DNA of 45,027 bases from Saprospiraceae bacterium. Its GTDB lineage: Bacteria > Bacteroidota > Bacteroidia > Chitinophagales > Saprospiraceae. The position numbers were made by a program, and so were the translations under genes. The stretch covers positions 28,467-73,493 of the forward strand of contig JAHDHF010000001.1 in the NCBI GenBank assembly GCA_020631455.1, written 5' to 3'. Positions 1,991-38,916 of this stretch are shown piece by piece (within the stretch, counting starts at the first letter, position 1; each line of letters starts with the position of its first letter). Below the pieces are notes generated by a model that saw nothing but the letters and a program-made list of their open reading frames with translations, was not told the DNA's origin and made no database searches.

Positions 1991-2127
1991 GGGCATCCGC
2001 TTCATTACATTCAGCAGCGGGCTATCCGCAGTACGGTAGCCTAGCTATCATTTAAAAAGCACGAGGCTTAAGCCCCGTGCTTTTTAAATGATATCCGCCC
2101 TTCGGGCGCTGCTCCTATCCCTATGCC
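1991..2127 (-). repeat. module B copy 1 (structured intergenic repeat)
   Basis: Read on the minus strand it has the B pattern. P1 is GGCAT/ATGCC. It is followed by AGGGATAGGAGCAGC, with P2 as GCAG/CTGC and P3 as CGCCC/GGGCG. P4 is a long hairpin (2046-2093, about 18 bp before the loop region). The conserved CTAGGCTACCGTACTGC and ATAGCCCG follow, then P5 as CGCT/AGCG and the closing strand of P1. It fills the gap between the convergent ends of trmD and the small gene at 2132-2452. It is paired with module A1 (2481-2597) in the same orientation, with that gene between. Confidence 0.85.
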
Positions 2128-7536: not shown

Positions 7537-7670
7537 GGGCCATCCGCATTATTTTAATAGTGTAAAATCACTATAAAAATAATGCGGTCGCTATGCTACG
7601 TGGCTCGCTGTTCGCTCGGCCGCTCATTGTATTCGCGTCTGGCTGCGCCACCACTTCGCAGCGCTTGTCC
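7537..7670 (+). repeat. module A copy 2
   Basis: It begins GGGCCATCCGC and ends CAGCGCTTGTCC. Hairpin 1 is an AT-rich stem of about 19 bp starting CCGCATTATT and ending AATAATGCGG. The conserved GGTCGCTATGCTACGTGGCT follows, then CGC/GCG and TGGC(TGC)GCCA stems. A 20-nt spacer (7671-7690) links it directly to module B2. Confidence 0.9.
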
Positions 7671-7690: not shown

Positions 7691-7822
7691 GGCTGAGGGA
7701 TAGTAGGCAGCACTCGCGTAGCGAGTGGATTTTTATTTTCTATGAAATGGAAATAAAAAGCTAGGTTACCGTACTGCCGAATAGCCCGACCTGAAATGAG
7801 TGAAACGAATGAAGGGGAGCCC
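7691..7822 (+). repeat. module B copy 2
   Basis: P1 is GGCT/AGCC, the core is AGGGATAGTAGGCAGC, P2 is GGCAG/CTGCC and P3 is ACTCGC/GCGAGT. P4 is TTTTTATTT against GAAATAAAAA, then CTAGGTTACCGTACTGCCG, AATAGCCCGAC and P5. It separates the convergent msrA and UbiA-like genes. Together A2 and B2 account for the whole 7537-7822 gene-free stretch. Confidence 0.9.
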
Positions 7823-13916: not shown

Positions 13917-14044
13917 GGGCCATCAGCAGCCTCGATTCTACTGATAGAATCGAGGCTGCTGTCGCTATGCTCCGTGGCTCGCTGTTCGCTCGGCCGCTCG
14001 TGATACTCGCGTCTGGCAAAGCCACCACTTCGCAGCGCTTGTCC
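13917..14044 (+). repeat. module A copy 3
   Basis: It begins GGGCCATC and ends CAGCGCTTGTCC. Hairpin 1 is a perfect stem starting CAGCAGCCTCGATTCTA and ending in its complement before GTCGCTATGCTCCGTGGCTC. The CGC/GCG stem and TGGC(AAA)GCCA hairpin are present. A 22-nt spacer (14045-14066) links it to module B3. A 67-codon antisense frame runs across both modules and is not a gene. Confidence 0.9.
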
Positions 14045-14066: not shown

Positions 14067-14165
14067 GGCTGAGGGATAGTAGGTGTTGTCTGAACGTAGC
14101 GCGACCCTAGGAGCGCGGAGAGAGTGCCGAATAGCCCGACCCTGAGCGGAGCGAAGGGACAGCCC
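14067..14165 (+). repeat. module B copy 3 (shortened)
   Basis: P1 is GGCTG/CAGCC, the core is AGGGATAGTAGG, and TGCCGAATAGCCCGACC is present. P5 is CCCT/AGGG. The usual CTAGGCTACC segment and long P4 are replaced by a short GCGC...GCGC hairpin, and P2 is weak. This is the only B copy between tandem rather than convergent genes; A3+B3 lie between the aldo/keto reductase and a CotH gene. Confidence 0.8.
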
Positions 14166-21438: not shown

Positions 21439-21588
21439 GGCTGAAGGATAGTAGGCAGTCCCGATCTTTCGGGAGATGCAAGGCGTAGCCGCAGCAGCCG
21501 AGCGCACAGCGAGCTGCCGGATAGCCCGACGCGCAATAAAAAAGCTCCTTGTAAAATACAAGGAGCTTTTTTATTGCGGGGCAGCCCC
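21439..21588 (+). repeat. module B copy 4, chimeric with a piece of A
   Basis: P1 is GGCTG/CAGCC, the core is AAGGATAGTAGGCAG, P2 is GGCAG/CTGCC and P3 is TCCCGA/TCGGGA. The P4 position (about 21475-21512) holds sequence resembling the antisense of module A (GCAGCCGAGCGCACAGCGAG). GGATAGCCCGAC follows, then P5, a near-perfect 20-bp hairpin (21532-21578). It separates the convergent DUF805 and CotH genes. Confidence 0.85.
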
Positions 21589-26171: not shown

Positions 26172-26394
26172 GGGCTGCCCTTCACTCATTTCATTCGTTC
26201 AGGTCGGGCTATACGCAGTACGGTAGCCTAGCTTTTTTTGCTTGTTTAATATTTGTCACTCCGCACTCCGTTGCGGAGTCTCTTTGCAAAATATAGATAA
26301 GAGATGCCGCAACGGAGTGTGGCATGACAAAAGCAAGTAAACCAACAAGCAAAAAAATCCGCTCGCAAGCTCGCGCTGCTCCTATCCCTCAGCC
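26172..26394 (-). repeat. module B copy 5, interrupted by an inverted-repeat element
   Basis: On the minus strand P1 is GGCTG/CAGCC, the core is AGGGATAGGAGCAGCGCGAG, and P2 is GCAG/CTGC. The conserved CTAGGCTACCGTACTGC and ATAGCCCGACC are present. P4 is a TTTTTTTGCTTG/CAAGCAAAAAAA stem whose loop is filled by element C1 (26254-26329). It is paired on the same strand with module A5, with the gene at 26640-27275 between. It separates that gene from the convergent MATE gene. Confidence 0.85.
26254..26329. repeat. inverted-repeat element C1 (TGTCA...TGACA) nested in B5
   Basis: A 76-bp element with imperfect terminal inverted repeats of about 30 bp. The left end is TGTCACTCCGCACTCCGTTG; the right end, reversed, is TGTCATGCCACACTCCGTTG. 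Each arm also holds a small hairpin (CTCCGTTGCGGAG type). It sits in the loop of the P4 stem of module B5 and looks like a non-autonomous MITE-like insertion. No clear target duplication. Confidence 0.65.
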
Positions 26395-26409: not shown

Positions 26410-26514
26410 TGTCATCGCGCACTTGATGCGCGATCCCACACACTACTATTTTATCAAATTAAACACAGAGTGTGTGGGATTGCGGATAAATGCGCTGCAT
26501 TTTCCGCAATGACA
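26410..26514. repeat. inverted-repeat element C2 with hairpin-bearing ends
   Basis: A 105-bp element with ends TTTTTTGTCAT. Each end carries its own hairpin, different in sequence: ATCGCGCA/TGCGCGAT on the left and ATTGCGGA/TCCGCAAT on the right. Both are followed inward by CCCACACACT. The core is AT-rich. It shares the TGTCA/TGACA ends with C1. Beyond it, 26515-26639 is AT-rich and holds nothing I recognise. Confidence 0.65.
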
Positions 26515-30781: not shown

Positions 30782-30934
30782 GCGAGAGGGATCGGAGTGG
30801 CGCGAGCTTGCGAGCGGATTTTCTATTTCTTTTTCTTTGAAAAGAAATAGAAAAGCTAGGCTACCGTACCACGCAGAGCCCGACATGAAAAAAGCGTCTT
30901 CACATTTGTGAAGACGCTTTTTTCATGGCTCGCC
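30782..30934 (+). repeat. module B copy 6
   Basis: P1 is GCGAG/CTCGC and P2 is GTGG/CCAC, both changed on both strands relative to other copies. AGGGATCGGAG, CTAGGCTACCGTACCACG and AGAGCCCGAC are present. P4 is CTATTTCTTT/AAAGAAATAG. P5 is a perfect 19-bp stem (30885-30926) with a T-run on either strand, a likely bidirectional terminator. It separates the convergent methyltransferase and symporter genes. Confidence 0.88.
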
Positions 30935-34980: not shown

Positions 34981-35140
34981 CAGCCTGCTTGGGTTTTACT
35001 ATTAAAATTTAATAGTAAAACTCAAGCACCGCGCTATCCGTAGTACGGTAGCCTAGCTATTAAAAAATCCCCTAGAGAAAATTTTCTCTAGGGGATTTTT
35101 TAATATCCGACACTCCGGTCGCTACTCCTATCGCTGGCTG
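34981..35140 (-). repeat. module B copy 7
   Basis: On the minus strand P1 is CAGCC/GGCTG, the reverse of the usual pair. The core is AGCGATAGGAGTAGC, with P2 as GTAG/CTAC and P3 as CGAC/GTCG. P4 is a perfect 46-bp palindrome (35059-35104). CTAGGCTACCGTACTACGG follows, then P5, a hairpin of about 19 bp at 34987-35027. No module A accompanies it. It faces B8, 64 nt away in the opposite orientation. Confidence 0.85.
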
Positions 35141-35204: not shown

Positions 35205-35378
35205 CGCTCAAGGATAGAAGGCAGCGCGAGCGAAGCGAGCGGCTTTTTGTTTTATATTCGAAATAGTAAAAGAATTCCTTCCATTTTCAAAGGAAGGAAA
35301 AAAGAAAGATTGATAGAAAAAAAAAGCTAGGCTACCGTACTGCCGAATAGCCTGACTCGCTACTTGTAGCGAGGAGCG
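35205..35378 (+). repeat. module B copy 8
   Basis: P1 is CGCTC/GAGCG, the core is AAGGATAGAAGGCAGCGCGAG, and P2 is GGCAG/CTGCC. CTAGGCTACCGTACTGCCG and AATAGCCTGACT are present. P5 is TCGCTAC/GTAGCGA. The P4 region contains a family D hairpin, TTCCTTCC/GGAAGGAA (35275-35299). B7 and B8 form an inverted pair between the convergent dehydrogenase and M23 genes; the 64 nt between them are AT-rich without other signal. Confidence 0.85.
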
Positions 35379-38593: not shown

Positions 38594-38726
38594 GGGCCAT
38601 CCTCGATTTATTCTAGTGAACATTCACTAGAATAAATCGAGGTCGCTATGCTACGTGACTCGCTGTTCGCTCGGCTGCTGCGCTACGCTTGCATCTGGCT
38701 GCGCCACCACTTCGCAGCGCTTGTCC
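38594..38726 (+). repeat. module A copy 7
   Basis: It begins GGGCCATCC and ends CAGCGCTTGTCC. Hairpin 1 is a perfect stem of about 18 bp starting CCTCGATTTATTCTAGTG. It has GGTCGCTATGCTACGTGACTC, the TGC/GCA stem and TGGC(TGC)GCCA. A 23-nt spacer (38727-38749) links it to module B9. Confidence 0.9.
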
Positions 38727-38749
38727 ATCTCAGTATGTGAGTGCAGCTT

Positions 38750-38916
38750 GCGATAGGGATGGTAGCAGCGCGAGCCTGCGAGCGGATTTTTGTGCTTGTT
38801 TTTACTTAAGTCCTTCCATTTTTAAGGGAAGGATTTAGGATGGGTATACAAGTACAAAAATCTAGGCTACCGTACTGCGAACAGCCCGACCGCTACACTT
38901 GTGTAGCGGTATCGCC
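38750..38916 (+). repeat. module B copy 9, overlapping the aminotransferase 3' end
   Basis: P1 is GCGAT/ATCGC, the core is AGGGATGGTAGCAGCGCGAG, and P2 is GCAG/CTGC. CTAGGCTACCGTACTGCG and ACAGCCCGACC are present. P5 is CCGCTACAC/GTGTAGCGG. P4 carries a nested family D element (38809-38844). P5 and the closing P1 strand lie within the last eight codons of the convergent aminotransferase gene. Confidence 0.88.
38809..38844 (+). repeat. family D hairpin repeat (CCTTCC...GGAAGG, then TTTAGGATGGG)
   Basis: TCCTTCC pairs with GGAAGGA, followed by TTTAGGATGGG. The same CCTTCCATTTT..AA.GGAAGG core occurs in the P4 arm of B8 (35275-35299). Similar CCTTCC/GGAAGG plus AGG-TGGG repeats are common in Bacteroidota intergenic DNA, as far as I recall. 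Confidence 0.55.

Follow-up and report, generated by a model that had tools for sequence, protein, structure and literature searches.

Module B, a Flavo-1-related repeat of a Saprospiraceae genome with a conserved outer frame and a variable inner domain

Introduction

Flavo-1 (Rfam RF01705) was listed among probable RNAs in a table of PMC2864571 in 2010, and has since been described in PMC9723704 as matching indistinctly the sense and antisense strands of transcribed regions, with many matches lying in none. These two papers, as consulted, give no function for it, and in the literature searched no paper was found that treats Flavo-1 as a mobile DNA element. Subclass 1.2 of the IS200/IS605 TnpA proteins is described in PMC6006769 as lacking REPs and, for the most part, terminal hairpins as well.

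Module B is an intergenic repeat of a Saprospiraceae genome, which was analysed starting from a single stretch of 45,027 nucleotides (hereafter the window). It has its outer frame in common with Flavo-1, from which the local type differs by the addition of arm P2, by a core that is private to it, and by the length of P4, which bears cassettes. It resembles a MITE, or other nested element, in being non-coding, multicopy and intergenic, and in accepting nested elements, but it has a multi-branched, covarying fold beyond terminal inverted repeats, and its terminal helix, P0, is of 5 bp. The reading developed here, which we consider probable, is that module B consists of a conserved outer frame and an insert-tolerant, swappable inner domain, the arms of which have been multiplied and exchanged among copies. 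Module B offers a natural system for the question of how folded repeats gain and exchange parts.

Anatomy of module B and its copies in the window

The own genome comprises 2.9 Mb in 323 contigs, with the window on contig 321. AGCTAGGCTACCGTACTGC, the conserved 3′ shoulder of P4, matches 185 sites in it with up to two mismatches, against 0 for the reversed control, and the core, with up to three mismatches, matches 188. Read from 5′ to 3′, the element runs through P0, P1, a GNA internal loop, P1b, P2, P4, the core, the opposite GNA, the 3′ strand of P1, P3, and the 3′ strand of P0; its strands are GGCTG (P0), GGGATN (P1), GCAG or GGCAG (P1b), CTAGGCTACCGTACTGC(C) (core), N′AGCCC (P1 3′) and CAGCC (P0 3′). 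The outer frame, formed by P0, P1 with its GNA internal loop and the P3 side hairpin, closes around the inner domain, which in its commonest local form is made up of P2, P4 and CTAGGCTACCGTACTGC. The contents of P4 are drawn from a limited repertoire of cassettes, one to an arm: REP-like hairpins of four classes (R1–R4), a TGTCA...TGACA element, and hairpins of the CCTTCC, terminator-like or plain A+T kind. The nine copies in the window, with B5 in its parts, are as follows.

1992-2127, minus strand: B1; P4 tip with a REP-like hairpin of class R1 at 2059-2080
7691-7821, plus strand: B2; P4 is a plain A+T arm
14067-14164, plus strand: B3; inner domain of type II (GGTGTTGTCTGAAC...GAGAGAGTGCC) within the outer frame, without P4 and without core
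21439-21586, plus strand: B4; an antisense module A-like inner domain (type III) within the outer frame, without P4 and core; P3 terminator-like
26173-26394, minus strand: B5, whole element from P0 to P0′; fold computed
26390-26394, minus strand: B5 P0 5′ strand (GGCTG), pairing with 26173-26177 (CAGCC)
26383-26388, minus strand: B5 P1 5′ strand (GGGATA), pairing with 26206-26211 (TAGCCC)
26360-26375, minus strand: B5 P2 hairpin
26232-26359, minus strand: B5 P4 arm, 128 nt, with 14-nt stem strands at 26344-26357 and 26233-26246
26254-26329, minus strand: 76-bp TGTCA...TGACA element in the loop of B5 P4
26215-26231, minus strand: B5 conserved core CTAGGCTACCGTACTGC
26178-26205, minus strand: B5 P3 arm
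30782-30933, plus strand: B6; P4 plain A+T, P3 terminator-like
34981-35140, minus strand: B7; P4 terminator-like, P3 a long A+T hairpin
35206-35377, plus strand: B8; CCTTCC/GGAAGG hairpin at 35277-35297 in P4
38750-38915, plus strand: B9; CCTTCC/GGAAGG hairpin at 38812-38832 in P4

The strand of B5 folds at −50.4 kcal/mol with DNA parameters (z = −6.57), and none of 200 shuffled sequences folds as low. The original prediction placed foreign repeats in the P4 arms of four of the nine window copies, which is borne out for B5, where the 76-bp element lies in the P4 loop exact to the base, and for the CCTTCC/GGAAGG hairpins of B8 and B9, amounting to composite repeats in three of the seven P4-bearing copies. 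The fourth, B4, does not belong with them: it was thought to hold an antisense piece of module A in P4, but has neither P4 nor CTAGGCTACCGTACTGC, its entire inner domain having been replaced by an antisense module A-like sequence that spans GGCAG to CTGCC, pair included (21454-21518). Three types of inner domain thus share one frame within this genome, and seven further frames of the B3 type and four of the B4 type were read in the part of the genome that was sampled.

Several other features of the window were noted. Next to B5 (26410-26514) is another palindromic TGTCA...TGACA element, 105 bp long, with similar pieces in L062 and L107. Module A lies closely upstream of B2, B3 and B9 (7583-7669, 13957-14043 and 38638-38751), and such A-then-B pairs may be transmitted together. 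P2 hairpins of the CGCGAGC..GCGAGCG kind, such as that at 26360-26375, have GA facing GA, an arrangement which we take to resemble tandem sheared G-A pairs.

Compensatory changes in the helices

Module B is real as a repeat, and its helices are kept by compensatory changes. In P1, the N-N pair is A-T in 77, G-C in 18, C-G in 4 and A-A in 3 of 102 copies, while GGG/CCC is present in 79, GCG/CGC in four and AGG/CCT in three of 86. An additional C on the 3′ side accompanies GGCAG in 25/25 copies, against 1/56 of those with GCAG. The closing pairs of P2 are CGC/GCG in 68 of 89 copies, CAC/GTG in 16, CGC/GTG in four and CGA/TCG in one, in counts for which the parser demanded three standard pairs. 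P0 varies as an entire helix, as GGCTG/CAGCC, GGCAT/ATGCC, GGCTC/GAGCC and others, with the best match taken as the partner and at least four of five pairs needed. When 24 copies are aligned, 99.5% of cells are paired and both partners have changed in 8 of 16 pairs; covariation scores 0.210, as compared with 0.023-0.077 for slid partners. P0 and P3, which are misaligned there, are excluded from this count. The outer P4 stems are diverse in sequence but paired, with 1039 Watson-Crick cells, four G-T, three A-C and 12 others across 96 arms.

Relatives in the Bacteroidota and the relation to Flavo-1

The core appears to be private to this lineage in the collections searched. Its exact form has no match in the named genomes searched, a search from which records close to the window’s own may have been excluded, and an 18-mer of it has none in viral contigs; at two to three mismatches, in 39 other genomes, 12 have just one to three matches each, 16 in total, against 12 for the reversed control. 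The frame is a different matter. A covariance model found it in seven other genomes (120 searched, own included), all hits counting as frames, L161 and L162 too. A 14-base pattern from the 3′ half occurs in 16 of the 120 genomes, some of the single matches not being frames, and is most abundant in G013 (104), the own genome (68) and G106 (22). Sixty-nine loci were read, of which 55 gave frames by script, showing the same frame with other inner domains; the remaining 14 include two duplicates and some truncated or variant frames. In relatives the common form of the frame is GGGATAGNAGC...GCGGATAGCCCGACC, together with P0 and P3. Among the G106 copies read the inner domain measures 19 nt; it is 34 nt long in G098, 34-41 nt in G045, about 110 nt in G013 and 56-105 nt in G009. 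A gapped frame pattern derived from relatives yielded at least 119 stretches, and the 81 matches that were read lie in 80 named Bacteroidota loci, with Flavobacterium, Gillisia, Pedobacter, Sphingobacterium, Algoriphagus, Tannerellaceae and Saprospiraceae among the matches listed. The outer frame therefore recurs across the Bacteroidota, with an inner domain that varies between genera and between copies in one genome.

The Flavo-1 gathering score of 42 bits is reached at the frame in five of the 15 loci scanned from these 80. Saprospiraceae relatives match Flavo-1 only below it (4/7 and 7/11 in two scans), the best at 37.5 bits. In the own genome, L155 and nine other loci scanned have no Flavo-1 match, and the window itself gave only sub-threshold matches to Rfam up to E = 5, none of them to Flavo-1. 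Module B is thus a lineage-specific form of a Bacteroidota-wide element that is related to Rfam Flavo-1 and lies below its cut-off: it has the Flavo-1 frame, yet falls short of membership because its own copies are unmatched and its relatives in the family stay under the gathering score.

A number of inserts and replacements were observed in relatives. In L254 (G045) the inner domain reaches 206 nt, because the frame carries a MITE-like palindrome between two ATTAGAG sequences; this insert adjoins AGCGGA, and not the arm tip. Three frames of G013 (L264, L270 and L275) are without the 5′ half, with tandem repeats such as CAACCAGCAACCAG instead. In Flavobacterium the frame commonly encloses another type of inner domain, TAGCTACCGAAGTAGC (L282, L285, L287 and others).

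Contents of P4 and inserts elsewhere in the element

A sample of 97 core copies was assembled from the loci fetched among the listed rows of the 185 matches, plus the window. Eight could not be parsed (six at contig ends, one with a gap, one for P2) and three more were without the 3′ side, leaving 86, found by the core alone, in which P4 ranges from 22 to 128 nt. Classified by eye, with results that differ slightly from automatic ones, their P4 arms comprise 27 plain A+T, 31 REP-like (R1 11, R2 5, R3 8, R4 7), nine terminator-like and four short GC arms, and 15 long composites (TGTCA three, CCTTCC six, CCTCCCTGATCGC type two, other four). In this larger sample P4 is the most variable arm. It is not the only one: a 19-mer, TCCCGANTNCTCAGGAGGA, occupies the P2 tip in two of the 86 copies and J4/1 in three, and 12 of the 76 copies in which P3 could be measured (those with a 5-bp P0 partner) have P3 arms of at least 39 nt, nine of these with a terminator-like hairpin. 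P2 and P3 had been described as intact, along with P1, which was barely able to vary in the 86-copy sample because the parser required it.

As copies found through the core cannot reveal a broken core, searches with the cassettes themselves were added. The TGTCA element has 11 sites in the genome, nine in P4 and two outside module B, and none elsewhere within B. The nine in P4 share one orientation and a similar arm frame (GCTT in the 5′ arm of 7/9, AAGC in the 3′ arm of 9/9), which suggests one or a few events that were then multiplied, and lends no support to the several independent landings implied by the original prediction. Among the 86 copies, none has the GCTT...AAGC stem of this class on a short arm, so that the TGTCA insertion is without an empty paralogue. 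Both the TGTCA and the CCTTCC cassettes are found outside B too. The 19-mer TCCCGANTNCTCAGGAGGA has 55 sites in the genome, of which 35 distinct ones were read; ten are at J4/1, two at P2 tips and at least three within inner domains of type III. The others belong to module A or other sequence, and none of the 35 is in P4. At the P2 tip, the genome holds a clean pair of filled (L035) and empty (L023, L024, L028 and L041) sites.

With patterns derived from P4 arms and applied to the whole genome assembly, R1–R4 hairpins were found at 42 sites, 40 within P4 arms of B and two flanking the gene of a Y1 transposase. The exact R1 sequence, GGGCTTNAGCCC, accounts for eight of these, six in P4 and the two beside the gene; all R2 (7/7), R3 (15/15) and R4 (12/12) sites are in P4, some being judged from one side at contig ends. 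R2–R4 occur in a single orientation relative to B, and an inner R2, R3 or R4 hairpin sits in several differing outer stems.

P4 does tolerate other repeats without loss of the outer pairing frame, as had been proposed, and this extends to G134, of another genus, where six of ten homologous elements have a REP-like palindrome of the TAGAGACGCATCAACATGCGGCTCTG type at the arm tip and four are short (‘empty’). Empty counterparts in relatives, which the original prediction had looked to, exist in this sense, although they are paralogues of one another, in another genus, and the palindrome is a different one. The notion of P4 as a special site fares less well, since other cassettes are housed in the P2 tip, J4/1 and P3; every cassette keeps to particular places, so that inserts have no general sink.

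The 19-mer TCCCGANTNCTCAGGAGGA was also seen often at the hairpin tips of module A (GGCG^CAGCC), with no visible target duplication (L148, L202, L205, L208, L217, L219, L226 and others), and it may be a minimal mobile hairpin.

The Y1 transposase and comparison with REPs

The own genome was found to have a single Y1_Tnp gene, on contig 126 (L101), which is flanked on both sides by palindromes of the R1 class, GGGCTTAAGCCC, the upstream one with GTAG. Its protein scores 72.5 bits with the NCBIfam IS200 model (cut-off 55), and 38.3 bits with the REP-associated model, under the cut-off of 80, and its nearest solved relatives are the IS608 TnpA chains 2a6m and 2vhg (E about 1e-6). Its motifs, DHIH, WQ and YIQNQEKHH, fit those given for TnpA subclass 1.2 (DH[IV]H, WQ and Y---Q--HH) in PMC6006769, as does its single copy, whereas the flanking palindromes set it apart from that subclass as it is portrayed there.

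The hairpins of module B are REP-like in being short, GC-rich, intergenic and present in many copies, and, as in REPtrons, two flank a single-copy Y1 gene, one of them after GTAG. They differ in that R1–R4 are not free-standing. A REP guide, GTAG or GTGG, at 0-2 nt 5′ of the hairpin foot is absent from all P4 hairpins listed from the 86 copies; on the other strand, a GTAG lies within the core, several bases away from the P4 stem. A link between the Y1 transposase and module B, as read from these sequences, is suggestive only.

Reassortment of arms and competing explanations

Arm combinations were examined in 102 copies parsed from 119 candidates, for which automatic classes misplace a few arms and class frequencies are biased, because the cassette searches brought loci in. 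P4 class shows no significant association with P1b type (p = 0.115) or with P0 type (p = 0.093), nor with the J4/1 insert, for which p = 0.83 comes from a test on six copies with little statistical power. It is linked with P2 class (p = 0.001), and the arms are thus not freely independent. The six copies with a 19-mer at J4/1, just ~20 nt from P4, adjoin six kinds of P4 (A+T, GC, R1, R2, R3 and TGTCA, by eye). The near independence of P4 class from P0, P1b and J4/1 type implies that arms reassort, and the mosaic patterns suggest an exchange of arms among copies. In the mechanism that we would propose, an arm is constrained chiefly to close as a hairpin, so that self-complementary arrivals at its tip would be tolerated; once acquired, an arm would be multiplied and exchanged among copies via short conversion tracts or template switching.

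The mosaic could be imagined to come from short-read assembly having joined wrong arms to wrong frames, in a genome of 323 contigs, several of which end inside P4 arms. Such wrong joins would break the match between the P1/P1b halves that flank P4, but the halves agree across it, with the P1 N-N pair kept in 99/102 copies and the extra 3′ C tracking GGCAG as described above, making chimaeras a very improbable source. Another possibility is that P4 arms evolve in place: at the replication fork, templated (quasipalindrome) mutation would rewrite hairpins while their strands stay complementary. The divergence of outer P4 stems that nevertheless remain paired is what this would produce, and the identical inner R2, R3 or R4 hairpins within several different outer stems can be understood in the same way. 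The recurrence of identical R2–R4 hairpins and TGTCA elements in many copies calls for the copying of arms and not just local rewriting, and TGTCA and CCTTCC cassettes are present outside B as well; as the main explanation, in-place evolution therefore seems quite unlikely.

The original prediction had also suggested that hairpin tips attract insertion, for which the agent would be a single-strand-specific Y1 (HUH) transposase placing hairpin cassettes into exposed loops of B. The palindromes around the lone Y1_Tnp gene, with the remaining six of eight exact GGGCTTNAGCCC sites at P4 tips, and the confinement of R2–R4 to P4 are consistent with this. The P4 copies are, however, without the GTAG guide that REPs have by the hairpin foot, and the single orientation of R2–R4 is compatible with plain co-inheritance. 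No Y1_Tnp match was found in G013, the genome in which frames are most numerous, and G106 and G098 fall outside the 88 of 120 genomes that have one, so that any link to the Y1 protein is to one P4 cassette and not to the frame. We give attraction a small probability, and within the preferred reading of a stable frame with exchanged arms, the single Y1 transposase might at most be connected with how one class of P4 hairpin arose.

RNA or DNA element

A further alternative is that module B is a transcribed RNA, of the Rfam class of Flavo-1, with P4 as a peripheral extension and its variable arms as neutral decoration. The table of PMC2864571, where Flavo-1 figures among the probable RNAs, and compensatory change, which is typical of RNA structures, speak for it. 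Against it, PMC9723704 reports no consistent strand of Flavo-1 relative to transcription. Among the own copies, 38 have near neighbours on both sides; these genes converge on the element in 22, both run with it in nine and against it in six, and diverge in one. G-T pairs, at 11 of 2379 helix cells, are few for an RNA able to use G-U, and not far above A-C at five, in a parsing that favoured paired cells. None of 47 copies examined lies in a long ORF. An RNA seems unlikely on this evidence; the rarity of G-T pairs and the orientation of neighbouring genes lean towards a DNA structure, without being decisive, and the element may act as folded DNA.

Given the constant frame and the exchanged, repeat-filled arms, the little-understood Flavo-1 “RNA” family appears closer to a modular DNA element. 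A more far-reaching proposal would be that Flavo-1 is a phylum-wide mosaic element folding as ssDNA, and not a regulatory RNA, whose frame is recognised and multiplied, whose arms are cassettes, and into whose loops Y1 HUH transposases, including subclass 1.2, deliver hairpins; we regard this as improbable. The ~190 copies of a Flavo-1 relative with swapped, hairpin-filled arms make the question of RNA or DNA directly testable.

Terminator-like P3 hairpins, mostly of the AAAAAGCTCCTAG...CTAGGAGCTTTTTT type, were observed in L014, L020, L044, L050, L061, L073, L077 and L088, and in B4 and B6 of the window. As most copies lie between converging genes, an element with such a P3 could serve as a two-way terminator.
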